64,000 bases of DNA, taken from assembly GCF_009649845.1 (NCBI RefSeq), contig NZ_WJIE01000002.1:186001-250000 (forward strand), written 5' to 3'. Made by a program: the position numbers and the translations under genes. Below are positions 11,405 to 47,358 of this stretch, piece by piece. The DNA comes from Polyangium spumosum. Its GTDB lineage: Bacteria > Myxococcota_A > Polyangia > Polyangiales > Polyangiaceae. The notes below the pieces were generated by a model. That model did not search any database. It saw only the letters and a list, made by a program, of their open reading frames with translations, and was not told the DNA's origin. Positions within the stretch are counted from its first letter, which is position 1. Each line of letters opens with the position of its first letter.

Positions 11405-11461
11405 GAGGAGAGGAAGGGGGGCTGTCCGCCCCAGGAATCGCTCCCCAACAAATCCGCGACG

Positions 11462-12784
11462 TTACCCCCCGTTCGCACGCTTTCCGGAACGATTCAGGAG
11501 TGAAGCGGGCAGCGGGGGGAACACCTCGCCCACGTTCCGCCCCATGAGCTGGGCCTCATCGAAGTAGACGTCCGTCGTCTCCTGCTTCTGGTGCCCGAGG
11601 ATCCGGCGCAGCTCGATCGCCCCGTAACGTCCCGACCGCGCCGCCCACGTCGCGCCCGTCGCTCGCAAGCCGTGCATGGTCAACGGGATGTGCATCCTCG
11701 TTCGCTGGCGTAGGTCCGGGCGCGTCAGCCCCGCGCGGTCGAGGTACTTACTGAACGCGTCCGACACCTTGTAGACGTTGATCGGACAGATGAGGCCACG
11801 CCCTCCCGCATCGTCGATCATCACCTGCAAGAGCGGGAGCACGTTTGTTTCGAGCGTGAACGATCGCCCGCGCCCGTTCTTGGGGGCCTTCTCTCGCTTG
11901 CGCTTCCGATCGTACGAGCGAGAGATCGTGATCCGCTCGTGTGCGAGATCGATGTCCTCGCATCGCAGACGGGCGAGCTCGCTCAACCTGCACATGAGGT
12001 ACACCGCGAGCGCGACGAGACGACGCGTGCGGATGGAGATCGCCTCGCACGCCACGAACCGGAGGAACTCCTCGGGGTAGAAGCAAGCGCGCGTCTGCTT
12101 CTTCGGCGTGGGGGGACCCTTCACGCCTAGCGCGGGATTGTCCGGCCGAACGTAGAGATCCGGGTCTCCATCCGCGTCCGATGCCGTGGCGAGCATCGTG
12201 CGGAAGTAGGAGAAGTAGCGAGACGCGGTGTTCGCCGCGAGCCGATCGGCCGCTGCTTCGTTCCGGAAGTAGGCGGCGACGCGCTTGACGTCATCACGCG
12301 TGAGCGCGGCGATCGGCTTCTCTCCGATCGTCCCGTCGTCCACCTTCACGCGGAGCGCGTGCACCTTCAGGCCCGACGTGTAGCAGGAGATCGATCCGTT
12401 CCCTTGCTTGTCGCGCCACGCGAGCCAGCGATCGGCGTAGCTCGCGACCGTTTCGAGAAGCGAGCCGGCCGCGCTCGCCGCGCTGGGGTTCGCCGTCGCT
12501 CCGCGGAGCAGGGCATCGCGGGGCACAAGCTCGATCGGCACCCAGCCAGGCAAGCGTCCCTCTTCCGCCAAGCGAGCCAGCGCGAGGTCTGGACGGTCGG
12601 TGTAGAGCTTGGCCAGTTTGTCAAGGTCGGCGTCGGTGGGGGCCCGACCGTTGATCCCCTTCGGGACCACGATCCCAGGCAGGCGCCGTTCCTTCACACC
12701 CGGCACGGCCGACTGTGGAAGGGTGACGTAGACCAGGAAGTGATCGCCCGATCGCTTCCACGTGCCCTTGCGCGCTCGTCCCAT
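11462..12784 (-). CDS. Tyrosine recombinase / phage-type integrase
   Basis: 440 residues. The C-terminal catalytic domain has the expected residues: Arg in MCRLSELARLRCEDID (about residue 265), a lysine in the beta-hairpin region, the HGLR box (MHGLRATGATWA, about residue 370), the second His in RILGHQKQETTD, and the nucleophilic Tyr in TTDVYFDEAQ (about residue 404). An N-terminal core-binding domain precedes it. It should catalyse site-specific integration or excision of the surrounding element. It converges on the cytochrome gene with 57 bases between stops. No tRNA or obvious att repeat lies beside it. It appears intact. Confidence 0.93.
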   Translation of the reverse strand: MGRARKGTWKRSGDHFLVYVTLPQSAVPGVKERRLPGIVVPKGINGRAPTDADLDKLAKLYTDRPDLALARLAEEGRLPGWVPIELVPRDALLRGATANPSAASAAGSLLETVASYADRWLAWRDKQGNGSISCYTSGLKVHALRVKVDDGTIGEKPIAALTRDDVKRVAAYFRNEAAADRLAANTASRYFSYFRTMLATASDADGDPDLYVRPDNPALGVKGPPTPKKQTRACFYPEEFLRFVACEAISIRTRRLVALAVYLMCRLSELARLRCEDIDLAHERITISRSYDRKRKREKAPKNGRGRSFTLETNVLPLLQVMIDDAGGRGLICPINVYKVSDAFSKYLDRAGLTRPDLRQRTRMHIPLTMHGLRATGATWAARSGRYGAIELRRILGHQKQETTDVYFDEAQLMGRNVGEVFPPLPASLLNRSGKRANGG

Positions 12785-12898
12785 GGATCACCCTCCGATC
12801 CAGGGCGCCTGGGGCGCGCAGAAGTTGGACGCAAAATAGACGGATGCTACCCTATTCATAGGTCAAACCTCGCTGTTGTCGGGGTTTGGCTCAGGGCT

Positions 12899-12925
12899 CC
12901 CGTGCATGTTTGCTCCATGCATGGG
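12899..12925. promoter_or_regulatory. Inverted repeat between excisionase-like gene and integrase
   Basis: CCCGTGCATG-N7-CATGCATGGG, 10-bp arms with one mismatch. A weaker CAAACC/GGTTTG pair lies about 25 bases to its left. The position between the two recombination genes suits a terminator, an operator or part of an attP core. The sequence does not decide among these. Confidence 0.4.
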
Positions 12926-12988
12926 GGCCCGCCTTGTCACACCCCCTACCAGAGGAACGCCCCCACGTCAAGGAAGGGGCCGGGCGCC

Positions 12989-13390
12989 TCATCGGCGCGC
13001 CTTTCCCGCGCGTCGCGAGCGGCGCAGCGGAACATGGTGACCGGCGGCCCGGATCGCCTCGTGTAATGCGAGCGCGTCTCCATACCCGTCCGAAGCAGCC
13101 GCCTCGCGCGTCGAGCGATGCGGCGCGATGGTCGCGCGAGATTCGATCCAGGCGTCGACCTCGTCTTTACGAGCCAGCACCTTGCGCCCGACCTTGGTCG
13201 CCTTGAATGCCCCTTCCCGCGCGAGCCGTAGAAATGCCGTGGGACCCATGGGCGCCGTTTTCGCGTCGTAGAAGCCCCCGCCGTTGCCGCTGGGGCTCGC
13301 CTCGTTGGCCTCACGCATGATGCTCCCGGCATAGCGGAGCAACGTGGCGAGCGCCGTGATCACCTCGGGGGGCAATTCGTGGGAGGCCAT
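12989..13390 (-). CDS. Excisionase-like helix-turn-helix protein
   Basis: 133 residues. Residues about 45-85 (PMGPTAFLRLAREGAFKATKVGRKVLARKDEVDAWIES) have the layout of winged-helix excisionase/AlpA-type DNA-binding domains: a helix-turn-helix, then a basic GRKVLARKDEVDAWI wing. Such proteins act as directionality factors for tyrosine recombinases or as small repressors. The gene is 5 bases downstream of the 13396 gene and about 200 bases upstream of the integrase, in the same orientation. The C-terminal tail is Arg/Lys/His-rich. The HTH class is likely; the excisionase role is inferred from position. Confidence 0.75.
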   Translation of the reverse strand: MASHELPPEVITALATLLRYAGSIMREANEASPSGNGGGFYDAKTAPMGPTAFLRLAREGAFKATKVGRKVLARKDEVDAWIESRATIAPHRSTREAAASDGYGDALALHEAIRAAGHHVPLRRSRRAGKARR

Positions 13391-13395
13391 AGGCG

Positions 13396-13836
13396 CTACC
13401 TCGTCGCGCCCGTGGGCTCGCGTCGGAGTTCGGCTACCTGCCGTTCCAGGGCGTCCACCCTCGCTTCCAGCTTCTCTTGACGGTGAATGACCGCAGCCGT
13501 GAATGGCGCGAGTTCAAGCAAACCGTCGGTTCGGACCAAGCAACCTGTCCGCCCGACTTGGGGGATCAGGATCTCCCGTCCGATCGCACGCTCGGCGGCG
13601 CGAATGCGGCGCGTTACGCGGCGCCGCCACGTCGGGTCATCCGTCGAGATTCCCAGGACCAGCGCGGCCGCGTCCAACCGCATGACGGCCGGTTGCTTCT
13701 GTCGGGTGCTTTCTTCCCCGCCGTCTTCCTCGGGGGTTTCGTTGTCGTCGTCGTGCGCGGAAGGGTGGCGGGGACGCAGCCCAAACCGGGCCTCTACCGT
13801 TACGCCCCAATTCGATTGCAGGGACCGCGGAGCCAT
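13396..13836 (-). CDS. Hypothetical protein with C-terminal coiled coil
   Basis: 146 residues from the ATG at 13836. A GTG at 13893 would extend it into the operator region and adds an unlikely Pro-rich start. The N-terminal third is acidic and low in complexity (HDDDNETPEEDGGEE). The middle resembles a DNA-binding or adaptor segment (ALVLGISTDDPTWRRRVTRRIRAAERAIG). The end is a short coiled coil (RQEKLEARVDALERQVAEL). It is the first gene behind the twin operators and is followed after 5 bases by the excisionase-like gene, so the two probably form one transcript. Function unknown. Confidence 0.6.
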   Translation of the reverse strand: MAPRSLQSNWGVTVEARFGLRPRHPSAHDDDNETPEEDGGEESTRQKQPAVMRLDAAALVLGISTDDPTWRRRVTRRIRAAERAIGREILIPQVGRTGCLVRTDGLLELAPFTAAVIHRQEKLEARVDALERQVAELRREPTGATR

Positions 13837-13901
13837 GCGCCCATCGTCCCGAACGGTCGGGCGTCGGGGCAAGGGAAAACAGGGCAGAAACACGACATGC
13901 G

Positions 13902-13920
13902 TAGGACGTTAAACGTCCTA
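13902..13920. promoter_or_regulatory. Operator-like palindrome 1, TAGGAC-N7-GTCCTA
   Basis: TAGGACGTT-A-AACGTCCTA is a perfect 9-bp dyad around one central base. It shares both half-sites and the 7-base spacer with the palindrome at 13957, 55 bases away centre to centre, upstream of the leftward 13396/12989 genes. Such pairs typify repressor binding sites. Confidence 0.7.
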
Positions 13921-13956
13921 TCTGGGGGTCCCTGCACGATTCCAGTGTGGTGACGA

Positions 13957-13975
13957 TAGGACATCAATTGTCCTA
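13957..13975. promoter_or_regulatory. Operator-like palindrome 2, TAGGAC-N7-GTCCTA
   Basis: The same half-sites and spacing as the first site; here the dyad extends to CGATAGGACA-N5-TGTCCTATCG, 10-bp arms. It lies between the leftward operon and the 3' end of the lipoprotein gene. Confidence 0.7.
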
Positions 13976-14025
13976 TCGTGCTCGTCTGTTGGCAAGCCCC
14001 AGCGAAGTCAAGCGCTTACGAGCGG

Positions 14026-15207
14026 TCACTCGTCGAAGATGTACGATTCTCGACAACAAATGGTCACGGCGTTCTCGTCATCCTCGACCGCCTCGCCGAT
14101 GGGCTCCCCCCCGCCGGCCTCGCACGTGCCCGCGATGTAGGCGTGATCCGTGACGGCCTTTGCCCCGACGGCGCGGCCAAGGGGAATGATCGGGTTGCAG
14201 TCACCCATGACCGAATAAATGGGCTGTTCCAGGAATTGCGAGGAACACGACGCATCATCGAATAGGCGCAGCGTCGCAGCGCAGTATCCACCCTGCGGTG
14301 CGCCGCACGTGCATGCCGTGCAATCGCGCGATTCCTTGGGCTGAAACGGGTACATGGTCCGGGGAAGCTCCCAATTGTAGGGCTTGGGACATTTCGTATG
14401 CTTCCCTTTCTGCCAGATGCATTGACGGTAGGGGTAGAGCACCTTGGGGACGCAGAGCTGATCCCCCGAGCCACAAAGCGACGTGTCGAGGCTCGACCGA
14501 CAGGCGAGCGCGCCAGTCTCCCATTGCCAGATCCTCGATCCGCCCGCCTTGATGATGGGCGACGGCTTGACGTCGCACTTCTCGTTGACCGGAGGCGGAA
14601 GCGCCGAGAACGCGATCGACTGTGCACACGGGACGCCGCTCCCCGGGGGACACTCCGCCCCAGCGGGTAGCGCGTTCGCATCCGTGCAGGTCCCATCCCA
14701 CCCCCCCGCGCCGTCAAAAGGGAGCGACGGCACCCCCACCGCGCCGCACATACCAGCCCCGATCGTGATCTCCCCCGGGACGCCGCTGCATTGCCCCGTC
14801 GCGTCCTTGCATTCGCAGGGGTCGCACTCCATGGGGGGCGCCGTGAGGCCGGCGTAGAGCTTGAATTGCTCGCCCCCAAGGAAGGGGCACCCCGTTGGCA
14901 TGTCTTCGGCCGGTCCGATCCACGTGGCCCACGGGACCAGGCTCCAGAATGCTGCTGGGGTCTCAGAGTCGTCGGGGATCTTGACGCATTCGCCGCCATT
15001 CGCTTTGCATGCCGCTTGTGGATCGGCATCCGGGCCAGCGTCAACGTCTGGACCAGCGTCCGGGCACGCTTTGGTAGGAAACAGTGGATCCGGAATACAT
15101 TCCACGAATACATTATCTGTCACGGCGCATCCCTCGACAAAGATCGCCCCAGCGGCGAGCGCCAACGATATAGACGTCATCAAGAACAGACTTGCGTTCC
15201 AGCGCAT
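14026..15207 (-). CDS. Cys-rich secreted lipoprotein
   Basis: 393 residues. The N-terminal hydrophobic segment ends in a lipobox-like FVEGC. An Asp/Gly/Pro spacer (PDAGPDVDAGPDADP) follows, of the type common between lipid anchor and domain in myxobacterial lipoproteins. The remainder has about 30 cysteines in motifs such as CDPCECKD, CTACTCGAP and CCRES, implying many disulphides and an extracytoplasmic location. No enzyme motif is seen. It starts 15 bases downstream of the TPR/outer-membrane gene and probably shares its transcript and that of the sigma factor. Confidence 0.8.
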   Translation of the reverse strand: MRWNASLFLMTSISLALAAGAIFVEGCAVTDNVFVECIPDPLFPTKACPDAGPDVDAGPDADPQAACKANGGECVKIPDDSETPAAFWSLVPWATWIGPAEDMPTGCPFLGGEQFKLYAGLTAPPMECDPCECKDATGQCSGVPGEITIGAGMCGAVGVPSLPFDGAGGWDGTCTDANALPAGAECPPGSGVPCAQSIAFSALPPPVNEKCDVKPSPIIKAGGSRIWQWETGALACRSSLDTSLCGSGDQLCVPKVLYPYRQCIWQKGKHTKCPKPYNWELPRTMYPFQPKESRDCTACTCGAPQGGYCAATLRLFDDASCSSQFLEQPIYSVMGDCNPIIPLGRAVGAKAVTDHAYIAGTCEAGGGEPIGEAVEDDENAVTICCRESYIFDE

Positions 15208-15222
15208 GACATGGCCCCTATT

Positions 15223-16542
15223 CTACAGATTCCACACAGCCGAGACGGCCCCCGCCAGCATCACCGCAGGTTGCTCCACAAGTACCTTTTGCCCAACGAT
15301 GATCCGAGTAGCCTTTGACAACGCAAACCCATCGCCCGCTACCCGCAAGGCTAGCGGACCAAGAAGAGGAATGTCGATTCCGACGAGTCCGCCAACGCCT
15401 GGACGGAATAATACTTGGGACGCTTCGCGGAATGGGTCGCGCTGAGACTCAATCGCCATAACCCCAATGTGCCCGGCGGCGCATGCCCAGGCCCATCGCC
15501 AATGGCCGCATAGCCCAGCCAATGCACCAGCGGTCATTGCATGGATCGGCTCTCCGCCGATGTTTGCTGTCGACCAAGCGCTACGCGCCTGGACATCAAC
15601 CGAGAAGTAGCTGTGTAGTCGAATGCGTCCAGAGAGCACCGCGCCCACAGCAGGAACCCACGACGCCACCCCCAGCACCATCACCGGCCCCGCGCCGATC
15701 GAACCCCTCACCCCCGATTTCTTCCCGCCACCCTCCGGAGAATCGTCGTACGCATACGGATCCTCCTGCTTTGGCAGTGGCCTCCCGTCCACGACCGCCA
15801 CCGCCCCAGCAATGCCGAGACGCCGATCCCCAAACGGCGCCGTGCGCACCTCGGGAAAACCGGGGGGCCGCGGGATCCCCGCTGGCTCCGGGGGAGGCTT
15901 GGGTGCTGGGGTGGGCTCGATGGGAGGATCCGAGGGGAGCGGCGTCAGGGTGACAGGGACGTCCATGCTCCCGCCCTTGCACGCCGTGAACACCGCGCGC
16001 CCGTCCCGATACCCCGTGAGGGTCGCGCGTATCTCGTGCTCGCCTGGCATTACGAACGTGAAGAATGCCGATCGGCGCCTTCCGTTGATCCGCTTCCCGT
16101 CGAGCGTCGTCGTTTCGGGTATGTGGGATATCTGAACGTCGATCATGCAGACGGCCGCCCTCGCGACGCTGTAAGCGTCGGAGAATTGCCCCCGCTCGAC
16201 GGCGTCCGCCTTCCAATCGCGATTGACTGCGTCATGAAGCAGATCCGCCGCTTCCGCTGGACTATTGAGCGCGACGAGCACCACGCCGAGACGTCCGGCG
16301 ATGAGAGGGTCCGGCCGGATCGCGAGCGCGTCCGAATAGGCGTCCAGCGCGTCGGCGAGTCTACCCGTGGCTTTCGCGCGGTCCCCGCGGCGTACATGCT
16401 CCCTGAAGCGTGCCTCCTCCGCGGCGGCCCTGATCGTCTCGGGATCCACGGTCGCCCCCGGGGCCGCATCTTGCGCATGCGCGGAGCGTGCGAGCCCGAA
16501 GCTACAGGCGAGAACCACAGCCGCGAGACGTACTGACGCCAT
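15223..16542 (-). CDS. TPR and PEGA-like outer membrane protein, sigma-factor neighbour
   Basis: 439 residues. A signal peptide (cleavage near AHAQ) precedes helical TPR-like repeats (residues 45-135, AKATGRLADALDAYSDALAI...). A PEGA-like beta domain follows (TTLDGKRINGRRRSAFFTFVMPGEHEIRATLTGY), then a Pro-rich linker, then a C-terminal part of alternating Gly/hydrophobic strands (GSIGAGPVMVLGVASWVPAVGAVLSG) suggesting a small beta-barrel or envelope-anchored domain. Proteins of this layout often sit next to ECF sigma genes in Polyangiales, and the sigma gene lies 90 bases upstream here. Probably an envelope protein controlled by that sigma factor; role unknown. Confidence 0.72.
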   Translation of the reverse strand: MASVRLAAVVLACSFGLARSAHAQDAAPGATVDPETIRAAAEEARFREHVRRGDRAKATGRLADALDAYSDALAIRPDPLIAGRLGVVLVALNSPAEAADLLHDAVNRDWKADAVERGQFSDAYSVARAAVCMIDVQISHIPETTTLDGKRINGRRRSAFFTFVMPGEHEIRATLTGYRDGRAVFTACKGGSMDVPVTLTPLPSDPPIEPTPAPKPPPEPAGIPRPPGFPEVRTAPFGDRRLGIAGAVAVVDGRPLPKQEDPYAYDDSPEGGGKKSGVRGSIGAGPVMVLGVASWVPAVGAVLSGRIRLHSYFSVDVQARSAWSTANIGGEPIHAMTAGALAGLCGHWRWAWACAAGHIGVMAIESQRDPFREASQVLFRPGVGGLVGIDIPLLGPLALRVAGDGFALSKATRIIVGQKVLVEQPAVMLAGAVSAVWNL

Positions 16543-16632
16543 GGAATCGGATTCTAGACAAACCTCGTGCCACGGGCAAGGGGGTTTGTAAGGTACGAAC
16601 GCCGGAACAAAACGCCCGCAAACCGCGCAGAA

Positions 16633-17613
16633 TCAATCGTCCTTTGGGTCGTGGGTGTTTTGCCGGAGGACGACATCGAGCTTGCGTCTGGTCGTGGGAG
16701 GAATCTTCGGGACGCCAGTCGCGCGGGGGGATGAAGCGGGCGCTGCGGACGGAGCGACAACCGGCGGAGGTGGTTCGATGGAGGCGACGCGCTCTTGTAC
16801 GTGGTCGAAGATGACCAGCACGTAGGGCGCGAGGTGAAGGTGACGAACGCGCGGCGCATCTTCTGACGGGAGGAGCCACGCCGCAACGGCCGCTCCCCCG
16901 ACGAGCACGCCCACCAAGGGTGGCCATAGGGGCCCGAGCATGTCCGCCCACCGTCGAGACCGGCGACGTCCAGGCGGCGCGGACGCCCCCTCGGGCGATT
17001 CCCCGCCCGGCGAGCCGCGCCACCAACGGCCAGACAGGAAGAAAAGCAGGAGCGGAAGGATGCCGCGCCTGTCGCGTTCGCGCTCGCACAGCGCCACGTA
17101 GAGCCGCATCCGCGCCTGGAAGGCGGCATTTTTCGCGGATGCCGTCGAAATGCCAAGCGATCGAGCGATGGTCTCGAATGTCTTTTCTTCGATCTCGTAC
17201 CCGATGAAAACGGCGCGTTGCCGCGGCGTCAATTTGGCGAGCTCGTCCCGGAGGAACCGAAGGAACTCCGCGCGCTCGACCTCGACCTCGGGCGAGACGT
17301 TAGGGGACACGATCTCATCGGGGGAGACCTCCCCGGCCGACGCGCAGCGCTGCTTGTCACGCCGGTACTTGCAGGCCATCCGCATCGTGATGACGAACAA
17401 CCACGGGCGCAGCTCGTCGTCCGGGATGTCCGCGCCCGTGCGGGATGTCGCGGCCCTACATAGGACGTCCTGCGTGATATCGTCGCGATCGGCGAGGGAA
17501 CTCACCCAGCGGCCCGTCCATGCGAAGATGACAGGACGGAGCGCGGCGAGCGCGGCGAGGCGTGGAGGGGAGCTGGACGGGGAACCGGTGTAGACGTGCG
17601 CGAGACTGGTCAC
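16633..17613 (-). CDS. ECF-type sigma factor with membrane-spanning C-terminal extension
   Basis: About 326 residues from the GTG at 17613; an upstream TTG at 17691 is also in frame. Region 2 is visible as DRDDITQDVLCRAATS...LRPWLFVITMRMACKYRR. Region 4 is LAKLTPRQRAVFIGYEIEEKTFETIARSLGISTASAKNAAFQARMRL. Unlike a normal ECF sigma of about 190 residues, it continues with a basic linker, one transmembrane helix (WPPLVGVLVGGAAVAAWLL) and about 80 more residues rich in Pro/Ala. This suggests a membrane-tethered sigma or a fused anti-sigma-like tail. It belongs to the leftward gene string with the TPR and lipoprotein genes, downstream of the two HTH genes. Confidence 0.82.
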   Translation of the reverse strand: MTSLAHVYTGSPSSSPPRLAALAALRPVIFAWTGRWVSSLADRDDITQDVLCRAATSRTGADIPDDELRPWLFVITMRMACKYRRDKQRCASAGEVSPDEIVSPNVSPEVEVERAEFLRFLRDELAKLTPRQRAVFIGYEIEEKTFETIARSLGISTASAKNAAFQARMRLYVALCERERDRRGILPLLLFFLSGRWWRGSPGGESPEGASAPPGRRRSRRWADMLGPLWPPLVGVLVGGAAVAAWLLPSEDAPRVRHLHLAPYVLVIFDHVQERVASIEPPPPVVAPSAAPASSPRATGVPKIPPTTRRKLDVVLRQNTHDPKDD

Positions 17614-17759
17614 GCTTCTACAAGTCCACAAGGGGGGCGAAGGTAACGACAGACCTGTCGATTTTTTTGTGCGGATGGTTGATTCTTTCAAATGCCTGAT
17701 CGAGCGATCAGGTGCGCACGGGTGCGCGCGTTTGGGCGCCTACAGGAGTGCCCCTTGCG

Positions 17760-18446
17760 TCAGGCGCGGCGCGTCAACGTGCGGCACAGCGGACACCGAC
17801 GAGGGTCGGTGCTCCGACGGAGCAGGGCTCGCGGGTGAACGTCGAGAGCACGGGCGACGCGAACGACCAGCGCCCATCGGGTGCGCTTCCCCGGGTAGTG
17901 GAAGAGGAAGACGCGTAGTTCGGCCTCCGGGATTCCCAGGACCGTGGCGAGCGCGGCTGCGTCGCCGTGATGATCGCAGAGAAGCTTGTAGACGATTTCC
18001 CAAAGGCGGGAGCGTTCCCAATGCGAGAGATACCGACCCATGCGCCCGCCTTTCGTGTCCCTTCGGGAGGAGGGTTCGCGTTCCGCGCCGTTCGTGGTTT
18101 GCAGGCTGGCGGGATGTCGTCGGCCCAAGGTGAATCGCTCGTAAGAGAAGCCAGCTTCGGCCGCGTCCCGCTTATGCTCAGCGGCCTCCTCGGGCGTCGC
18201 CTCGTACCCCAGAAAGTATCTGCGCCCTTCGGTGCCGTGCACCTCGGTTTCCCAGATGTAGATGATCCCGTCGTGGCCGAAGGCCAGCAGGCCCCACACC
18301 AAGAGCCGCAAGATCGTAGGCGAAGACAACCGCGCCAGCTCTTCCCAATGTAGCTCGACGCCGTGGAAGAAACGCCTTTCTCTTTTGCCAGGGACATGCG
18401 GCAGGTAAATGCGACCGTCGCTGCAATGCACAAACCGGCATGCCAT
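17760..18446 (-). CDS. HTH protein with CPxC tail (HTH2 type), N-terminally extended
   Basis: 228 residues from the ATG at 18446. The C-terminal 93 residues (SHWERSRLW...DAAALATVLGIPEAELRVFLFHYPGKRTRWALVVRVARALDVHPRALL...CPLC) match in order and motif the 113-aa transposon protein at 34606: helical repeat, HTH-like core and a terminal CPxC knuckle. An internal ATG at 18041 with AAAGGCGGG just upstream would produce that domain alone. The first 135 residues (MACRFVHCSDGRIYLPHVPG...) contain a compact region with WGLLAFGHDGIIYIWETEVHG and are absent from the transposon relative. Either a fusion or two products from one frame. A transcriptional regulator is inferred. Confidence 0.65.
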   Translation of the reverse strand: MACRFVHCSDGRIYLPHVPGKRERRFFHGVELHWEELARLSSPTILRLLVWGLLAFGHDGIIYIWETEVHGTEGRRYFLGYEATPEEAAEHKRDAAEAGFSYERFTLGRRHPASLQTTNGAEREPSSRRDTKGGRMGRYLSHWERSRLWEIVYKLLCDHHGDAAALATVLGIPEAELRVFLFHYPGKRTRWALVVRVARALDVHPRALLRRSTDPRRCPLCRTLTRRA

Positions 18447-19219: not shown

Positions 19220-19885
19220 TCACGAGGCGGGCGGACCGCGCGCCGTGGCACGCGGCGCAGTCGGTCGCCGATCGCGGCGCGCGGTGGGCGCGACCGTGGG
19301 GCGCGAATGGCCCGGCGTGGCGCTTGGCGGGGGGCTGGACGCGTCGAGCGGCGTCGGCTCGACCGTGGGGCGCGAATGGCCCGGCGCGGCGCTTGGCGGG
19401 GGGCTGGACGCGTCGAGCTGCGTCGCCTCGACCGCGGGGCGCGGAGGGGCCGGCGCGGCGCTTGGCGGACGGCTGGACGCGTCAAGCGGCGTCGCCTCGA
19501 CCGCGGGGCGCGGAGGGGCCGGCGTGGCGCTTGGCAGGGCGCTGGACGCGTCGTCGGGCGGCGTCGGCTCGACCGTGGGGCGCGGAGGGGCCAGCGCGGC
19601 GCTTGGCGGGGAGCTGGACGCGTCGAGCGGGGTCGGCTCGACCGTACGCACCGGCGGACGGTCAACAGGCAGCGCGTCGGGAACGTGAGTCAACGAGATC
19701 CGCTTGCCCGGATCACGCTTCAGGGCGTCGATTTGCTCGGGGGTAAGGGCATCGTCCGGAAGGCGCGTTTCGCCAGCAGGCCAGGAAAGGCCGACACGAA
19801 CGGTGCGACCGTCGCGGATTTCCTCACGAAAACCGCAGCGGTACACTTTGAAACCAGGGACGGGGGTGCAGGTGACGATCAGCAT
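19220..19885 (-). CDS. Phage-like small protein with repetitive Pro-rich tail
   Basis: 221 residues from the ATG at 19885. The first 70 residues (MLIVTCTPVPGFKVYRCGFREEIRDG...WPAGETRLPDDALTPEQIDALKRDPGKRISL) resemble in layout the small Mu-like prophage proteins of the HI1506 type: an RCG motif, then a PDDxLTPEQIxALKxDP ending. The similarity is from memory of the pattern only. The remainder is about five copies of a 23-residue Pro/Ala/Ser repeat (RPTVEPTPLDASS...) encoded by a 69-bp unit. In-frame periodicity supports translation. It lies at the edge of the repeat archipelago. Confidence 0.55.
   Translation of the reverse strand: MLIVTCTPVPGFKVYRCGFREEIRDGRTVRVGLSWPAGETRLPDDALTPEQIDALKRDPGKRISLTHVPDALPVDRPPVRTVEPTPLDASSSPPSAALAPPRPTVEPTPPDDASSALPSATPAPPRPAVEATPLDASSRPPSAAPAPPRPAVEATQLDASSPPPSAAPGHSRPTVEPTPLDASSPPPSATPGHSRPTVAPTARRDRRPTAPRATARGPPAS
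19292..19650. repeat. 69-bp in-frame tandem repeat
   Basis: Units beginning GACCGYGGGGCGCG recur at about 19292, 19361, 19430, 19499 and 19571 (one 72-bp step), with a degenerate copy at 19640. All steps are multiples of three, so the repeat encodes the 23-residue tail of the phage-like protein without frame change. Confidence 0.8.
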
Positions 19886-20024
19886 AGGCCTCTTTGCGCG
19901 GACTGCTCCACCCATGGGCCGAAATGGGACGACTATGGTCCGTTTGTGGCTGCATTGCTGCGGCCCGTGGTCTTTATCCGTGGCTGGCGAGCTCGAGGAC
20001 GCGGAGCGGTGAGGAAAAAATTTC

Positions 20025-22625
20025 GGTCGAGCGCGGTCCCGCCGTGCCGGCCTCGGGGAAGATTTCGCCGCTCGCCGCCCTCCGCGCCGTCGAGCGCGAG
20101 CGGCCCTTCATGATCGCGACCGTCGAGCGCAAGGCGCGGGACCGCAGAAACACGCGGTCGAGCGCGGTCCGGACGCCCCGGCCTCGGGGAAGATTTCGCC
20201 GCGGAGATCGCCCGCGCCCGTCGAGCGCGAGCAGGCCTTCCGCGTCGCGGGCGTCGAGCGCGAGGCGCGAGGGGCCGCAGAAACACGCGGTCGAGCGCGG
20301 TCCCGCCGCGTCGGCCTCGGGGAAGATTTCGCCGCTCGCCGCCCCCGCGGCGTCGAGCGCGAGCGGCCCTTCATGATCGCGACCGTCGAGCGCGAGGCCC
20401 GCGGGCCCGCCGAAACATGCGGTCGAGCGCGGTCCCGCCGCGCCGGCCTCGGGGAAGATTTCGCCGCTCGCCGCCCTCCGCGCCGTCGAGCGCGAGCAGC
20501 CCTTCATGATCGCGACCGTCGAGCGCGAGGCGCGAGGGGCCGCAGAAACACGCGGTCGAGCGCGGTCCCGCCGCGCCGGCCCCGGGGGAGATTTCGCAGC
20601 GCAGATCGCCCCGCGCCGTCGAGCGCGAGCAAGCCTTCCACGTCGCGACCGTCGAGCGCTAGGTGCGAGAGGCCGCCGAAACACGCGGTCGAGCGCGGTC
20701 CCGCCGCGTCCGCCTCGGGGGAGATTTCGCCGCGGAGCTCGCTCGCGCCGTCGAGCGTGTCGAGCGTCGAGCCCGGCGGGTGCGTTTGTGCAAACCCTCG
20801 CGCGTCCACGTCGAGCGTGCGCGTCGGGCCGCCTGCGTTTCCGCCACCCTACATCCGAGCGCGGCGGAAACGCGGCATCGAGCGCGGTCCAAGCTATCGA
20901 AAGCACGCGAAGATTTCGGCAGGAGGGGGGCCGGCGGAAATGCCGCCCCTCCGCGCCCCGAGGGCTCCCCTACGTCCCAACGTCGAGCGTGTCGGGCGCA
21001 TCGAGCGCCGCGAGCTGGCGACCGTCGAGAGCGGCGAGCGTGCCGCGTCGGAGTCGATCGCGAAATGGCCAAATGACCGCAGCATCCGGCATCATGCTGC
21101 GATGGACGCGTCCGCCTCGCGTGGCGCGACGTCGACACGGCGCAGGCGACGAGCACGAGGTACGGGGCGCGATTGGAGCGGCAATTCAAGGGGGGAGCGC
21201 GCCCGAGCGTCGAGCGCCGGCCGGTGGAATCGTCCCCCAGACAGGCGGCCGGCGGAAACGGTCCCCTTCACGGGGAGGCTTATTTCACGGGTAAACGCGC
21301 GCCCCGCGTGCCCTCGACCGAAGCATGCTCGCCGCGCTCGTCGTGCGTCCGGTACGTCCAACGCACGCGCGGCGCATCCTTAGTTTCCGCCACCTCGACC
21401 CCCCCGCATGCGGGGGTGGCGGAAATTCGTTGTCGAGCGCGGTCTGGGCGCGCCGGCCTCGGGGGAGATTTCGCGGCGAAGATCGCCCCGCGGCGTCGAG
21501 CGCGAGCAGGCCTTCCGCGTCGCGAGCATCGAGCGCGAGGCGCGACGGGGCGCCGAAACACGCGGTCGAGCGCGGTCCGGGGGCGTCGGCCTCGGGGAAG
21601 ATTTCGCCGCGGAGATCGCCCCCGCCGTCGAGCGCGAGCAGGCCTGCCACGTCGCGACCGTCGAGCGCGAGGCGCCAGGGGCCGCAGAAACACGCGGTCG
21701 AGCGCGGTCCCGCCGCGTCGGCCTCGGGGAAGGTTTCGCCGCGGAGATCGCCCCGGCGTCGAGCGCGAGCAAGCCTTCCACGTCGTGGCCGTCGAGCGCG
21801 AGGCGCGATGGGCCGCAGAAACACGCGGTCGAGCGCAGTCCGGGCGCGTCGGCCTCGGGGGCGATTTCACCGCGGAGCTCGCCCGCGCCGTCGAGCGTGT
21901 CGAGCGTCGAGCCCGGCGGGTGCGTCCGTGCAAACCCTCGCCCGTCCACGTCGAGCGTGCACGTCGGGCCGCCTGCGTTTCCGCCACCCTACATCCGGGC
22001 GCGGCGGAAATGCGGCATCGAGCGCGGTCCAAGCTATCGAAAGCACGCGAAGATTTGGACACGAGGGGGGCCGGCGGAAATGCAACCCCTCCGCGCCCCG
22101 AGGGCTCCCCCGCGTCCCAACGTCGAGCGTGTCGGGCGCATCGAGCGCCGCGAGCTGGCGACCGTCGAGCGCGGCGAGCGTGGCGAGTCGGAGCCGATCG
22201 CAAAATGGCCAAATGACCGCCGCATCCGGCATCATGCTGCGATGGACGCGTCCGCCTCGCGTGGCGCGACGTCGACACGGCGCAGGCGACGAGCACGAGG
22301 TACGGGGTGCGATTGGAGCGGCAATTCAAGGGGGGAGCGCGCCCGAGCGTCGAGCGCGGGCCGGTGGAATCGTGGCCCCGACAGACGGCCGGCGGAAACG
22401 GACCCCTTCACGGGGAAGCCCAATTCACGGGTAAACGCGCGCCCCGCGTGCCCTCGATCGAAGCGTGCTCGCCGCGCTCGTCGTGCGTCCGGTACGTCGA
22501 ACGCACGCGCGGCGCATCCTTAGTTTCCGCCACTTCGCCCCCCCCCGCATGCGGGGGTGGCGGAAATTCGATGTCGAGCGCGGTCGAGGGCAGCGAGCTT
22601 TCGGGAAGATTTCCGCCGCTCGACA
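20025..22625. repeat. Repeat block 1: about 132-bp units plus two 667-bp modules
   Basis: Starts with five units of 131-143 bp (GGTCGAGCGCGGTC at 20025, 20156, 20289, 20421, 20554 and 20697). A first long module (about 20750-21416) ends in the palindrome CCCCCGCATGCGGGGG (21401-21416). Three to four more short units follow, then a second long module (about 21890-22557) with the same palindrome at 22542-22557. Each short unit contains GAGCGCGGTC-N19-GRAGATTT. Every frame on both strands stays open for long stretches because of composition, but unit lengths are not multiples of three, so I call no genes here. Confidence 0.9.
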
Positions 22626-23054
22626 CCGGTCCGGCCGAGGGCCGGAGCTGCGGGCCCGCGAGCACGAGGGCGCGGCGAGCGCCGCCCGCCTCGATGCCGT
22701 GGGCCTCGATGCTCGTCGGGGTCGGTCACGACACACGCCCCTCATGTCCGGCTGCCACGTTTTCGCCGTTGAGCGCAATCCACGGCGCGGGCCCCTCGGG
22801 AAGATTCGCCCGCTCGACCGGCCGGCGAGCTGGGGGCACGCGTCAAGTCGAGGGCGGCGAGCACGAGGTCCGGCCGCTCGACGGGCCGAGCGTGAGGCCC
22901 AGCTCGCGAGCGACGAGCACGAAGGGGGGTATCACGACGCACCGGCCCCTATCGACCCGAAGCATCTTCGACGTCGAGTGCGACCCCGGCAAGGTGGGGC
23001 CGCACTCGACGCCGCGGGCGGCCGACGAGCTGGCGCCGGCCACCTTGCGCGAAA
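22626..23054. other. Degenerate repeat DNA
   Basis: Contains decayed pieces of the block repeats, for example a GAGCGCAATC-N19-GAAGATTC core near 22775. There is also a CGAGCACGAGGGCGCGGCGAG segment that recurs in part near 28945. No gene is supported. Confidence 0.5.
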
Positions 23055-23246
23055 TCACATGGCCGGCTTGGCTTGCTTTTCCGACTTCACCTTGTCAACT
23101 ACCTCCTGGAGCAGCTTGATCTCCTTCGCCGTCATCTGATCCGCGTCATCGTCCTTCAGACGCTGCTCCAGCACCTGAATTGCAGCTCGAAGGGCGAGTT
23201 TGCACGAAGCGTGGGTGAAACCAGAACTGACGATGCGATCGCTCAT
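23055..23246 (-). CDS. 63-aa protein overlapping the radical SAM gene
   Basis: 63 residues. The ATG at 23246 overlaps the radical SAM stop codon (ATGA), and GGAGG lies 6 bases upstream, so coupled translation is very likely. The protein has one Cys (THASCKLAL), then a helical, charged second half (RAAIQVLEQRLKDDDADQMTAKEIKLLQEVVDKVKSEK) that could form a coiled coil. It has no leader/core division or Cys/Thr-rich tail typical of a RiPP precursor, so a partner or regulatory subunit is as likely as a substrate. No homologue recognised. An upstream extension of the frame is not supported. Confidence 0.75.
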   Translation of the reverse strand: MSDRIVSSGFTHASCKLALRAAIQVLEQRLKDDDADQMTAKEIKLLQEVVDKVKSEKQAKPAM

Positions 23247-25000
23247 GGGGGACCTCCACTCAAGAAACGGTTGATCGACGTACGGGTGCGAGCCCTGAAT
23301 TCGTAAAAAACAGGGCTGCACCAAGCCTGGGGAATCGAGCCCAAGATTCGCTCTTCGGCTTGCGACAATGCCGATGGGCGAAGACCACCGAGGGGATCGA
23401 GGAAAATGGTATCGCGAGCCTCCGCCCAGTACGGCTCCGCAAGAGGGCCACGGCGGTCTCCGAGCGGGAGAATCCATGCGATTGGGTCGGTGGCATGGAA
23501 GGTCACGACCAGCTGCCGCTTCACCGCACGCGAGATCATTCCATGAAGCACGCGGAGATCGCCGATGGGGGTGGGACGATACATCGGTCCGTCATCATGC
23601 ATCCTGCGAATCAAGCACAATGTGGCGGCGCCGAGATCGGCCACCTGATCCACGATGTGCGCGATGTCCTCAAGCTTCCCGGTCTCGTAAACCGTATTGA
23701 TGGTGACCGATACTCCGCCCGTGACCAGGCGTTTGATGCGTCGGGCAATGGCCGAAGGTATGCCGTCTCGAGCGAGTGACTTGAAGTGGTACTCATCGAT
23801 TGAAACGGCGACCGCGCCACAGCACTCCAGGATAGTGCTCCACAGCTCATCGGATGGCTCGAGGGACAGGTTCGTCGACAGGTTGGGGATCATTCCGTGA
23901 GCACGCGTCATCCGTAACGCCGACGAAAGCCTGTCGTAGAGCAGCGCTTCGGCCCCCTCGCCGAAGTTCACCTGGACGATGCCGACCTGCGCTGCCTCGG
24001 AGAGCCTCGCTTGTAACACGTCGAGATCGAGCGACTCCCCGGTCATCGGATAAGGACAATGGGCACATTTCATGTTGCAGCTCGCGTTGAGCTGCACATG
24101 GAGAAAAGTCGGCGCCGCGGGGACGTCCCCCCGCGGGCCATCCGTTCGTTCGATGACCACGCCGCTCTGGCGATCTACGAGGAGCTGCACGTCGCCCCGC
24201 GCTCGCACGAGCTCCAGGCGCTCCGCATAACCGTTGGGCATGTCCTCGTTATTCTGCGGCAGATCCCATAAAACCGTGAAGAAGTGCAGCAACCGCAGCC
24301 AGTCATCGAGGACCGTGCGTGCATCGCTTTCGCAAAGCACCTCGCGAGCGAACCTCCCCGCTCGTCGGAGCGCGAGCGCCACCTCTGCCGGACGCTCCCT
24401 TTCGCGCAGCAAAGCAACAACGGGCTCCACCTGGTAGGCCTCGCGGGCATGCATGAGTTCCAGCTCGAGGAGCCCAATGTCCCGGGTCAGCATCTCACGC
24501 CAGAAGGACTGCAAATCGGGTGCAGAGTCGAGGTTCGCGACGAGCCAGATCTTATCTCCGATCGACTTGAGTTTGAGCAACATGGACAGGCAGGGGCCCG
24601 GCACCTGCGTCCTATGCCCGGAAGGAAGCTCCACAGTCCGCCAGTGCACGTCAGAGAAGTGCCAGCCCAGCTCTGCCTCGAAATGACCGAAGATAGGATT
24701 GCGCTGCTTCGCGAGAACGGGGGAGCTCAACGCGAGTGACTGGCCCTCGCGACGCCACACCTCGTCGGACAGCTCGCTATAGCCGAGTGGTTCGAGAACA
24801 TCGTTCGAAAAATCGCGAACATCAATGGTATTCGGGAGGTAAAGGTCGATGTCACGCGGCGTCACGGGAAGCCCCGACAGCGCGGCAGCCATACTTCCAA
24901 CGACGCAAAACGAAACACCGAAACGCTCAACGGTCTTCGTGAGGAGCTCGTCGACCACGTCCAGCGGGGTGCTCCGTGGATCAAGCATCCACCAACTCAA
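23243..25000 (-). CDS. Nucleotidyltransferase-like / radical SAM fusion protein
   Basis: 585 residues. The N-terminal domain (about 15-200) has a nucleotidyltransferase-fold signature, FCVVGSMAAALSG...TPRDIDLYLP, with the GS and DxD metal motif near residue 50, resembling AbiEii/MNT-type proteins. A helical linker follows. The radical SAM domain begins near residue 300 with the 4Fe-4S motif CNMKCAHC, then VNFGEGAEALL in the GGE position and an SIDEYHF strand. No Cys-rich SPASM or Twitch extension is seen. The TTG start at 25000 is chosen because GGAGG is 5 bases upstream; an ATG at 24988 is the alternative. GC is lower than in the flanking repeats, suggesting transfer. Product unknown. Confidence 0.88.
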   Translation of the reverse strand: MSWWMLDPRSTPLDVVDELLTKTVERFGVSFCVVGSMAAALSGLPVTPRDIDLYLPNTIDVRDFSNDVLEPLGYSELSDEVWRREGQSLALSSPVLAKQRNPIFGHFEAELGWHFSDVHWRTVELPSGHRTQVPGPCLSMLLKLKSIGDKIWLVANLDSAPDLQSFWREMLTRDIGLLELELMHAREAYQVEPVVALLRERERPAEVALALRRAGRFAREVLCESDARTVLDDWLRLLHFFTVLWDLPQNNEDMPNGYAERLELVRARGDVQLLVDRQSGVVIERTDGPRGDVPAAPTFLHVQLNASCNMKCAHCPYPMTGESLDLDVLQARLSEAAQVGIVQVNFGEGAEALLYDRLSSALRMTRAHGMIPNLSTNLSLEPSDELWSTILECCGAVAVSIDEYHFKSLARDGIPSAIARRIKRLVTGGVSVTINTVYETGKLEDIAHIVDQVADLGAATLCLIRRMHDDGPMYRPTPIGDLRVLHGMISRAVKRQLVVTFHATDPIAWILPLGDRRGPLAEPYWAEARDTIFLDPLGGLRPSALSQAEERILGSIPQAWCSPVFYEFRARTRTSINRFLSGGPP

Positions 25001-25164
25001 TCACGCCTCCACATGAGCGTCAAGGCAAATTCACGCCGCCGCATATATCGATGCTGCGCGGTCTCCGAAACGCAACGCGACGGAGTCGTCGCCGTCGACC
25101 CCCGAGGCAGAGCAGCGCCTGGCCCGCGCGCTCGGCCTTAGGGGTGTCGAGCCCGTCGAGCGGC

Positions 25165-27670
25165 ACTCTTCATTCCGCCACCTCGCGGCCTTGCCGCTGA
25201 CAGTCCGCGAAATAGCCGCTCGTCTGCAGTCCCGCCGCGCCGCCCTCGGGCAAGATTTCGTCGCCCCGCCGCTCGCGGCGTCGGCGCGAGGCGCCCTTCA
25301 CGGTGTGCGCCGTCAAGCGCAGGACGCGAGAGGCAGCCGAAATGCAGCGTCGAGCGCGGTCCGGACGCCCCGGCCTCGGGGAAGATTTCGCCGCGGAGAT
25401 CGCCCGCGCCCGTCGAGCGCGAGCAGGCCTTCCACGTCGCGACCGTCGAGCGCGAGGCGCGCTGGACCGCAGAAACACGCGGTCGAGCGCGGTCCGGGCG
25501 CGTCGGCCTCGGGGGAGATTTCGCCGCTCGCCGCCCCCCGCGGCGTCGAGCGCGAGCAGGCCTTCCACGTCGTGGCCGTCGAGCGCGAGGCGCGAGGGGC
25601 CGCAGAAACACGCGGTCGAGCGCGGTCCGGACGCCCCGGCCTCGGGGAAGATTTCGCCGCGGAGATCGCCCGCGCCCGTCGAGCGCGAGCAGGCCTTCCA
25701 CGTCGCGACCGTCGAGCGCGAGGCGCGCTGGACCGCAGAAACACGCGGTCGAGCGCGGTCCGGGCGCGTCGGCCTCGGGGGAGATTTCGCCGCTCGCCGC
25801 CCCCCGCGGCGTCGAGCGCGAGCAGGCCTTCCACGTCGTGGCCGTCGAGCGCGAGGCGCGAGGGGCCGCAGAAACACGCGGTCGAGCGCGGTCCGGGCGC
25901 GTCGGCCTCGGGGGAGATTTCGCCGCTCGCCGCCCCCCGCGGCGTCGAGCGCGAGCAGACCTTCCACGTCGTGGCCGTCGAGCGCGAGGCGCGAGGGGCC
26001 GCAGAAACACGCGGTCGAGCGCGGTCCGGGCGCGCCGGCCTCGGGGGCGATTTCGCCGCGGAGCTCGCCCGCGCCGTCGAGCGTGTCGAGCGTCGAGCCC
26101 GGCGGGTGCGTCTGTGCAAACCGTCGCGCGTCCACGTCGAGCGTGCGCGTCGGGCCGCCTGCGTTTCCGCCACCCTACATCCGAGCGCGGCGGAAACGCG
26201 GCATCGGGCTCGGTCCAACCTATCGAAAGCACGCGAAGATTTTCGGCGGGAGGGGGCGGCGGAAATGCCACCCCTCCGCGCCCCGAGGGCTCCCCTGCGT
26301 CCCAACGTCGAGCGTGTCGGGCGCATCGAGCGCCGCGAACTGGCGACCGTCGAGCGCATCGAGCGTGCCGCGTCGGAGCCGATCGCAATATGGCCGAATG
26401 ACCGCAACATCCTGCTTCATGCAGCGATAGACGCGTCCGCCTCGCGTGGCGCGACGTCGACACGGCGCATGCGACGAGCACGAGGTACGGCGTACGATTG
26501 GAGCGGTATTTCAAGGGCGTAGCGTGCACTGCCGTCGAGCGCCGGACGATGGAACCGTGGCCCCGACAGACGGCCGGCGGAAACGGTCCCCTTCACGGGG
26601 AAGCCCAACTCACGGGTAAACACGCGCCCCGCGTGCCCTCGATCGCAGCGTGCTCGCCGCGCTCGTCGTGCGTCCGGTGCGTCGAACGCACGCACGGCGC
26701 ATCCTTAGTTTCCGCCACTTCGACCCCCCCGCATGCGGGGGTGGCGGAAATTCGATGTCGAGCGCGGTCCGGGCGCGTAGGCCTCGGGGGAGATTTCGCC
26801 GCGGACCTCGCCCCGCGCCGTCGAGCGCGAGCAGGCCTTCCACGTCGCGACCGTCGAGCGCGAGGCGCGAGGGGTCGCAGAAACACGCGGTCGAGCGCGG
26901 CCCGGGCGCGTCCGCCTCGGGGGAGATTTCGCCGCGGGGCTCGCCCGCGCCATCGAGCGTGTCGAGCGTCGAGCCCGGCGGGGGCGTCCGTGCAAACCCT
27001 CGCCCGTCCACGTCGAGCGTGCGCGTCGGGCCGCCTGCGTTTCCGCCACTCTACATCCGAGCGCGGCGGAAACGCGGCATCGAGCGCGGTCCAAGCTATC
27101 GAAAGCACGCGAAGATTTCGGCGGGAGGGGGGCCGGCGGAAATGCCACCCCTCCGCGCCCCGAGGGCTCCCCCACGTCCCAACGTCAAGCGTGTCGGGCG
27201 CATCGACCGCCGCGAGCTGGCGACCGTCGAGCGCGGCGAGCGTGGCGAGTCGGAGCCGATCGCGAAATGGCCGAATGACCGCAGCATCCGGCATCATGCA
27301 GCGATGGACGCGTCCGCCTCGCGTGGCGCGACGTCGACACGGCGCAGGCGACGAGCACGAGGTACGGGGTGCGATTGGAGCGGCAAATCAAGGGGGAGCG
27401 CGCCCGAGCGTCGAGCGCCGGCCGGTGGAATCGTCCCCCAGACAGACGGCCGGCGGAAACGGTCCCCTTCACGGGGAGGCCTATTTCACGGGTAAACGCG
27501 CGCCCCGCGTGCCCTCGACCGAAGCGTGCCCGCCGCGCTCGTCGTGCGTCCGGTACGCCGAACGCACGCGCGGCGCATCCTTAGTTTCCGCCACCTCGAC
27601 CCCCCCGCATGCGGGGGTGGCGGAAATTCGATGTCGAGCGCGGTCATGGCCTCAACGCTCTTGAAAGATT
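25165..27670. repeat. Repeat block 2: six 133-bp units and two 667-bp modules
   Basis: Six consecutive units start at 25349, 25482, 25615, 25748, 25881 and 26014, exactly 133 bp apart. Pairs are duplicated as a 266-bp tandem (25349-25614 and 25615-25880 appear the same by eye). Long modules run about 26076-26741 and 26950-27617, each ending in CCCCCGCATGCGGGGG (26726-26741 and 27602-27617). The block ends with a core whose variable part is unique (about 27630-27660). Because 133 is not a multiple of three, reading frame rotates each unit, which argues against coding. Confidence 0.9.
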
Positions 27671-27841
27671 TTTTCTCTGGTAAACCAGGGACGGCCATAA
27701 TGCCATGCTCGAAGGGGGTATCCGTTCGGCAACCCGCATCGTCGGGGTCGAGCGGAGGTCCGGGCCACCTCAGTGGCCTAGCGGCGTGGGCCGCTCACGT
27801 AATCAGGTTGACGTCAAAACGGGATGTCTCATAGGAAGACA

Positions 27842-27868
27842 AGGCGAGCAGCACACGGCAGCTCGCCT
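27842..27868 (+). promoter_or_regulatory. Leader hairpin before the 27896 gene
   Basis: AGGCGAGC-N11-GCTCGCCT, a perfect 8-bp stem ending 15 bases before the AGGAGG ribosome-binding site. About 35 bases upstream, TTGACG (27810-27815) with CATAGG 16 bases further on is a possible sigma-70-like promoter. Leader regulation is inferred. Confidence 0.4.
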
Positions 27869-27895
27869 GATTCGTGGTTTGCCAGGAGGGGTGCA

Positions 27896-46404: not shown

Positions 46405-47358
46405 TCACAGGACGTCGAGCACGACAGACTCGTAAGCCGCAGGAGCGACGCCCCAATCAAGCCACAAATAGAAGGTTGTTGCCCCCGAATGATCAAACCA
46501 GATGCCCCTGGGACGATACAATTTCATCGAACCGATATCGCTTTTACGGTGCGCTCGCCGCTCCCCTCGAAGGTCCAGAATGAAGCGTACCCCACAAAGT
46601 GACACTTCGGCTCCCGACGTGCCGCGATCGTCTTGGTATGCGCCAAGGCTGACGGACCAGGCCGATTCGATAGTTTTGTTGACTGGGACTTGCATATAAA
46701 GTCCGGAGGGTGCAGCAAGATCCGTATAACCAAAAAGCAGCCGAAGCCAATCAACCGGAACTTTTATGCCATCAGCAGCGAAGGAGCCGCACAGAACCTT
46801 AAGAATCCAAAGCTCCAGGTTTTTGCCAGCAATGACACGACAGTTGTATGCCGGGACCACCTTGGTGCCTTCGTGAATCGCACGAAATAGGCGCTCCGCG
46901 CTGGCATCAAGAACACTGAGAGCAGAATTGTGCCGACGACATAGTATATTCGACTGAAGTGCCTGCTCGGATGGTAGTTCCATATCGGGCTTGTTTGGCC
47001 GCATAACTCGAATGGTATCGGATGCCGAACGAGAAAGCGCATAGGCTCTCACAAGTCCTTTGGAAAAATAGTGCTCCCGACTGATCTTCCGATCGCAATC
47101 CTCCAGCGCCAGTGCATAGCATTTGGGGTGTGAGTACCCCGTTTGCGGCAGCTTTGGGGTTGTCTTTGCAGCTGCAAGTGGTGCCGGGCTCTCACCATAA
47201 TCACAGCAGTAGCGAAGACGTCGAGTAGATCCGCACACGCATGGCCCGTCTAACGGAATTCGCACGCGGCGCCCGCTGTCAGAGATAACCACGCGGAATT
47301 CGGGTACAATATGCGGGCCGGGCAGCCATGGTGATGATTGCCGATGTAGCTTGCTCAT
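46405..47358 (-). CDS. SEC-C / HNH-like zinc protein
   Basis: 317 residues. Near the N-terminus, GPCVCGSTRRLRYCC fits the SEC-C metal-binding motif (CxCGSxxxxxxCC). A second metal-finger region reads HPKCYALALEDCDRKISREHYFSKGLV and then SNILCRRHNSALSVLDA. The EH after the cysteine pair and the later LCxxHN resemble a treble-clef HNH endonuclease core with a large insertion. The C-terminal 150 residues are an unrecognised alpha/beta domain ending YLWLDWGVAPAAYESVVLDVL. Codon use is far less GC-rich than nearby DNA, a sign of transfer. No partner gene. A nuclease, possibly of defence type, is an inference. Confidence 0.7.
   Translation of the reverse strand: MSKLHRQSSPWLPGPHIVPEFRVVISDSGRRVRIPLDGPCVCGSTRRLRYCCDYGESPAPLAAAKTTPKLPQTGYSHPKCYALALEDCDRKISREHYFSKGLVRAYALSRSASDTIRVMRPNKPDMELPSEQALQSNILCRRHNSALSVLDASAERLFRAIHEGTKVVPAYNCRVIAGKNLELWILKVLCGSFAADGIKVPVDWLRLLFGYTDLAAPSGLYMQVPVNKTIESAWSVSLGAYQDDRGTSGAEVSLCGVRFILDLRGERRAHRKSDIGSMKLYRPRGIWFDHSGATTFYLWLDWGVAPAAYESVVLDVL

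Follow-up and report, generated by a model that had tools for sequence, protein, structure and literature searches.

A radical-SAM core joined to a nucleotidyltransferase-like domain and encoded with a 63-residue protein in Polyangium spumosum

PsmN, a nucleotidyltransferase-type enzyme of the pseudomycoidin lasso-peptide cluster, tailors a ribosomal peptide and offers a precedent for enzymes of this type acting on peptides (PMC9266682). MenT is a nucleotidyltransferase that modifies tRNA (PMC10435456). We found no account in the open-access literature of a radical-SAM enzyme fused to a nucleotidyltransferase-type domain.

We analysed such a fusion in the soil myxobacterium Polyangium spumosum. 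The window, by which we mean the whole stretch of DNA that was analysed, comprises 64,000 nucleotides of assembly GCF_009649845.1 (contig NZ_WJIE01000002.1, positions 186,001 to 250,000). It encodes a protein in which a nucleotidyltransferase-like domain precedes a radical-SAM core, together with a 63-residue protein whose gene overlaps the stop codon of the fusion. The pair is an orphan, unusual in its domain make-up and assembled from known domain families.

Gene anatomy and the 63-residue protein

The features of the locus and its surroundings, in window coordinates, are as follows.

23243..25000, minus strand: fusion protein of 585 residues, with a TTG start and GGAGG five bases upstream at 25006-25010; laid out as N-terminal nucleotidyltransferase-like domain, helical linker, radical-SAM core and cysteine-poor C-terminal tail
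24431..24964, minus strand: nucleotidyltransferase-like domain, residues 13-190 (approximate), with G35-S36 and D50-x-D52
23603..24124, minus strand: radical-SAM core, residues 293-466
24056..24079, minus strand: CNMKCAHC, residues 308-315, the CX3CX2C ligand motif for the [4Fe-4S] cluster
23261..23413, minus strand: possible SPASM remnant, residues 530-580 (IFLDPLGGLRPSALSQ...WCSPVFYEFRAR), with the auxiliary-cluster cysteines absent
23055..23246, minus strand: ORF of the 63-residue protein, with GGAGG six bases upstream at 23253-23257
19273..23000, no strand assigned: first of the two GC-rich repeat blocks that flank the pair
25199..27703, no strand assigned: second flanking GC-rich repeat block, made of 133-base tandem units
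11462..12784, minus strand: tyrosine integrase, marking the conserved end of a putative element with the pair among its cargo

Both reading frames are present as the first-pass annotation had stated, and the 63-residue ORF, preceded by a strong ribosome-binding site, overlaps the fusion stop through an ATGA common to the stop of one gene and the start of the other. The start contexts read GGAGG-CGTGA-TTG for the fusion and GGAGG-TCCCCC-ATG for the small gene. The GS...DID motif that had been reported at the N-terminus was located, with GS at residues 35-36 and DID at residues 50-52, and the CNMKCAHC motif, placed earlier near residue 307, spans residues 308-315. The 585-codon frame of the fusion is intact, and codon-position GC is coding-like in both of its halves (e.g. 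0.69/0.42/0.74) and in the small ORF (0.63/0.34/0.70).

We scored the small ORF for codon preference using a measure trained on the fusion. Its frame scored 7.9, compared with -25.6 and -17.7 for the other frames on the same strand and with 2.4 for the best 5% of repeat-DNA controls. One antisense frame reached 9.1, and the case for the reported 63-residue ORF is therefore carried by its start signal and its overlap with the fusion.

The 63-residue protein contains one cysteine and one phenylalanine, and its composition is without the features usual in known peptide substrates of radical-SAM enzymes, in that it has no tyrosine or tryptophan, only a single cysteine and no glycine-rich core. Inspection of the sequence suggests that the protein should be helical. 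It had no match in Pfam, NCBIfam or PADLOC, a comparison with PHROG gave a chance-level match alone (0.065), and no convincing relative was found in its own genome, in the class, in phages or in plasmids. A Sinorhizobium fredii plasmid (L059) carries a 63-residue ORF at 2372-2563 that overlaps the start of a radical-SAM gene at 2518-4008, the product of which has SPASM-type cysteines. We set this candidate aside, as its small protein was on inspection unlike that of the window.

The two halves of the fusion

The assignment of the C-terminal half to the radical-SAM enzymes, made in the first-pass annotation, holds beyond chance by both profile and fold searches. NCBIfam models matched the core, among them GeoRSP_rSAM (4.3e-9) and PqqE (5.1e-6), with all of these matches far under the family cut-offs, and the Pfam Radical_SAM model matched residues 307-438 at 6.7e-5 with 23.6 bits, below its curated cut-off of 29.5. 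A profile built from relatives gave a score of 92 bits. PADLOC matched its viperin model pVip to residues 302-410 of the fusion at 1.1e-7, and the best PDB sequence match of the fusion was PqqE (4.6e-5). An AlphaFold model of the whole fusion, made from the single sequence with no alignment, had a pLDDT of 45 overall and of about 60-79 over residues 351-460. A fold search with this model returned SuiB as the top match (2.0e-5), PFL-AE (8.1e-5) and PqqE (6.9e-4), along with AbmM, viperin and BlsE; the E-values for SuiB, PFL-AE, PqqE, BlsE and viperin span about 2e-5 to 4e-3.

The best genome match to the core (L100) reached 4.4e-16. This protein and two more relatives that were scanned are radical-SAM/SPASM proteins, with SPASM kept in all three and an N-terminal PqqD recognition domain present in one. 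The radical-SAM core of the fusion is closest to the peptide-modifying PqqE/MftC/GeoRSP branch. Its CX3CX2C ligand motif is intact, and the usual GGE motif reads GEGAE (347-351).

The fusion had also been described as having no SPASM domain, which is right at the Pfam level: the Pfam SPASM model is absent from the fusion, and no cysteine occupies the aligned auxiliary-cluster positions. By eye, and when aligned globally to a profile, the tail (about residues 530-580) looks like the SPASM region of PqqE, except that it stops early and lacks the cluster cysteines. A tail-only profile performed no better than shuffled sequence, and this likeness is not significant. Since the auxiliary-cluster ligands are missing from the tail, only the SAM-cleaving cluster should remain.

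The N-terminal half was searched, as residues 5-287, against 317 genomes of the class. Nearly all of the 32 non-self matches listed fell on about residues 6-82, which hold the GS and DID motifs; two matches outside this block (L062 and L063) were rejected, since they are explained by weak helix similarity or by shadow frames. Most of the proteins matched stand alone and have a length of 165-225 residues. DUF6036 was found in four of the six that were scanned, and AbiEii, DUF2204, NTP_transf_5 and others also appeared. Identity between the N-terminal domain and the stand-alone nucleotidyltransferases of the class is roughly 20-27%. With a profile of thirteen related proteins the query scored 46.6 bits, compared with at most 8.2 in 2000 shuffles, a contrast that is biased upwards because the members of the profile had been found with the query.

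The profile alignment to the stand-alone nucleotidyltransferases extends to about residue 134, and a glutamate (about E110) aligns, at low identity, with the third catalytic aspartate of the relatives. No Pfam model matched the fusion's own N-terminal domain, and a fold search with a structure model of residues 1-250 (no alignment, mean pLDDT 47) returned chance matches only. The N-terminal domain thus resembles a nucleotidyltransferase of the DUF6036/AbiEii type by its sequence signature, and the nucleotidyltransferase-like domain of the earlier annotation draws its support from sequence only, namely from the GS...DxD block and the DUF6036/AbiEii-type relatives.

Rarity and genomic setting

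A full-length search of six genomes of the genus, among them that of P. spumosum itself, returned the window's copy of the fusion alone, and the fusion is absent from the five congeners. No second copy was found in 306 genomes of the class, in sets of 282 and 377 genomes of the phylum, in a peptide-pattern scan of 84,980 species, or in phage, plasmid and viral-contig collections. As only a small number of candidates is scored in each genome by the large scans, and the pattern scan is confined to close relatives, a diverged relative from beyond the phylum may have escaped detection. The homologue searches yielded separate radical-SAM proteins and separate nucleotidyltransferases only. Nucleotidyltransferases of the N-terminal type are common on their own (240 of 309 genomes), and none of nine long ORFs overlapping nucleotidyltransferase matches contained a radical-SAM domain.

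The two halves of the fusion have GC contents of 61% and 60%, and the small ORF 56%, compared with 70-73% for the flanking chromosomal genes. As first described, the pair is isolated between repeat blocks, with only repeat DNA on either side. The run of repeat blocks extends to 49150, with lower-GC cargo between the blocks, and positions 11416-49150 of the window form a mosaic in which the integrase and conserved genes (11422-17939) are followed by repeats (133-base units and shorter ones) alternating with cargo. The repeat family of the mosaic is also present elsewhere in the genus. One congener (G283) matches 11422-17939 at 77-86% DNA identity, and a second (G285) matches parts of 11416-16730 at 87-88%. 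The matches in both begin about 40-46 bases past the integrase stop, and the DNA outside is unrelated. Inward of the integrase end, both congeners carry blocks of the same repeat family, but the cargo lying between the blocks differs.

No att-like repeat of the left end was found, and neither was a right end; the integrative element itself is therefore something that we infer. The pair is most simply read as one item in the fast-changing cargo zone of an integrative element. The pair is horizontally acquired cargo, and the suggestion of horizontal transfer made from the window alone is borne out by its absence from the five congeners, its lower GC and the different cargo found between the same repeats in two of them. 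We also considered integron-like cassettes and a defence island, and rejected the former on the mixed orientation of the cargo and the lack of an att-like repeat of the left end, and the latter on the absence of any defence system in the cargo scanned.

Other genes were seen in this setting. The mosaic contains an IS66-family transposase gene (43844-45337) and an IS1-type transposase gene (31664-32752), and low-GC cargo genes at 27824-28732, 32815-33624 and 46405-47358 (54-58% GC) had no Pfam or PADLOC match. Between repeat blocks of the congener G285 lies a 102-residue cargo ORF (L119, 9036-9344). Its start resembles a signal peptide and its end is rich in cysteine (RRDCYCTRGCCRTLHRCWCC), and the product is possibly a secreted peptide.

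Possible function and comparison with known systems

Peptides are the main targets of the branch to which the core belongs, and translation of the two genes is coupled. We therefore propose, as the reading with the most support and with a probability of roughly 0.35, that the fusion is a modifying enzyme with the 63-residue protein as its substrate or partner. The radical-SAM domain would cleave SAM and modify a residue of a polypeptide, and the same target would receive a nucleotidyl group, or a related one linked through phosphate, from the N-terminal domain. The 63-residue protein, made by coupled translation, would be that target or its carrier. In this scheme the catalytic activity of both domains, the substrate, the order of the steps and the role of the small protein are all points that we infer. 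The more specific idea of a new kind of post-translational modification system, with a single bifunctional enzyme that would combine a SAM-derived radical and nucleotidyl transfer on the same co-translated small protein, is doubtful.

We counted in favour of the peptide proposal the peptide-modifying-like core, the radical-SAM/SPASM relatives of that core, the nucleotidyltransferase signature, the ATGA overlap, the strong ribosome-binding sites of both genes, the intact and coding-like frame of the fusion, and the precedent of PsmN. Counted against it were the position of the small gene downstream of the enzyme, its atypical composition for a substrate, the glutamate in place of the third aspartate, the chance-level fold matches of the N-terminal domain, and the lack of a homologue of the pair in the collections searched. 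With regard to RiPP features, the coupled 63-residue ORF is a candidate precursor of atypical composition; Pfam found no PqqD-type domain in the fusion, and no peptidase or exporter gene adjoins the pair, both of which also count against the proposal.

A serious and only slightly less probable alternative is that the target of the enzyme is RNA, a nucleotide or a small molecule linked to a nucleotide, with the 63-residue protein as a small subunit or regulator. The fusion would then combine a radical-SAM domain of the single-cluster type known from viperin or BlsE with a nucleotidyltransferase domain of the MenT type. A core without auxiliary-cluster ligands would be a single-cluster enzyme like viperin (pVip, 1.1e-7) and BlsE, and the 63-residue protein is without substrate-like residues. 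AbiEii-related nucleotidyltransferases modify tRNA in other bacteria, MenT among them (PMC10435456). However, the similarity to viperin and BlsE is lower than that to the peptide-modifying families, with 22 bits for viperin against a cut-off of 180, and the gene context is without RNA or nucleotide genes.

The tail without cluster ligands, the altered GGE motif and the glutamate replacing the third aspartate make it conceivable that the fusion is instead a recent non-functional chimera, formed by recombination in a repeat-rich region and heading to decay, and its orphan status and repeat-rich surroundings are consistent with such an origin. We consider this unlikely, as the frame is open over 585 codons, codon-position GC is coding-like in each half, the start signals of the two genes are good, and the CX3CX2C and GS/DxD motifs are kept.

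A toxin-antitoxin or phage-defence pair, with the nucleotidyltransferase domain as toxin and the 63-residue protein as antitoxin, would fit with AbiEii among the relatives of the domain and with the variable, integrase-linked region, but is improbable in view of the lack of an AbiEi-like partner (the sole adjacent gene is the 63-residue ORF, with no family match), the absence of a defence system from the other cargo of the islands that was scanned, the finding by PADLOC of nothing but a radical-SAM resemblance in the fusion, and a fused radical-SAM domain that, to our knowledge, has no place in known systems of either kind.

If active, the proposed modifying enzyme would be the first radical-SAM enzyme found, within the open-access literature, to be covalently joined to a nucleotidyltransferase-type domain, and its small partner protein makes it directly testable. 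Activity would also imply that these repeat-rich islands carry species-specific enzymes worth mining.

Among described systems, the fusion is like the PqqE, MftC and GeoRSP maturases in its radical-SAM core (residues 293-466), in its CX3CX2C motif and in having the gene of a small protein as its neighbour. Unlike them, it is without SPASM cysteines, has no detected PqqD-type domain and bears the extra N-terminal nucleotidyltransferase-like domain, and its small gene lies downstream and has no family match. The N-terminal domain has the GS...DxD block in common with the DUF6036, AbiEii, DUF2204 and NTP_transf_5 families, but differs in being fused to a radical-SAM core and in having glutamate as its third carboxylate. 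Viperin and BlsE are similar in having a radical-SAM core with one cluster motif, and there is weak resemblance in sequence and fold, whereas the fusion falls far below the curated cut-offs and has its extra N-terminal domain. PsmN, in contrast to the fusion, is a separate protein that acts after a kinase and has no radical-SAM domain; the likeness to it is one of putative function, in that a nucleotidyltransferase-type enzyme is tied to the modification of a ribosomal peptide (PMC9266682).
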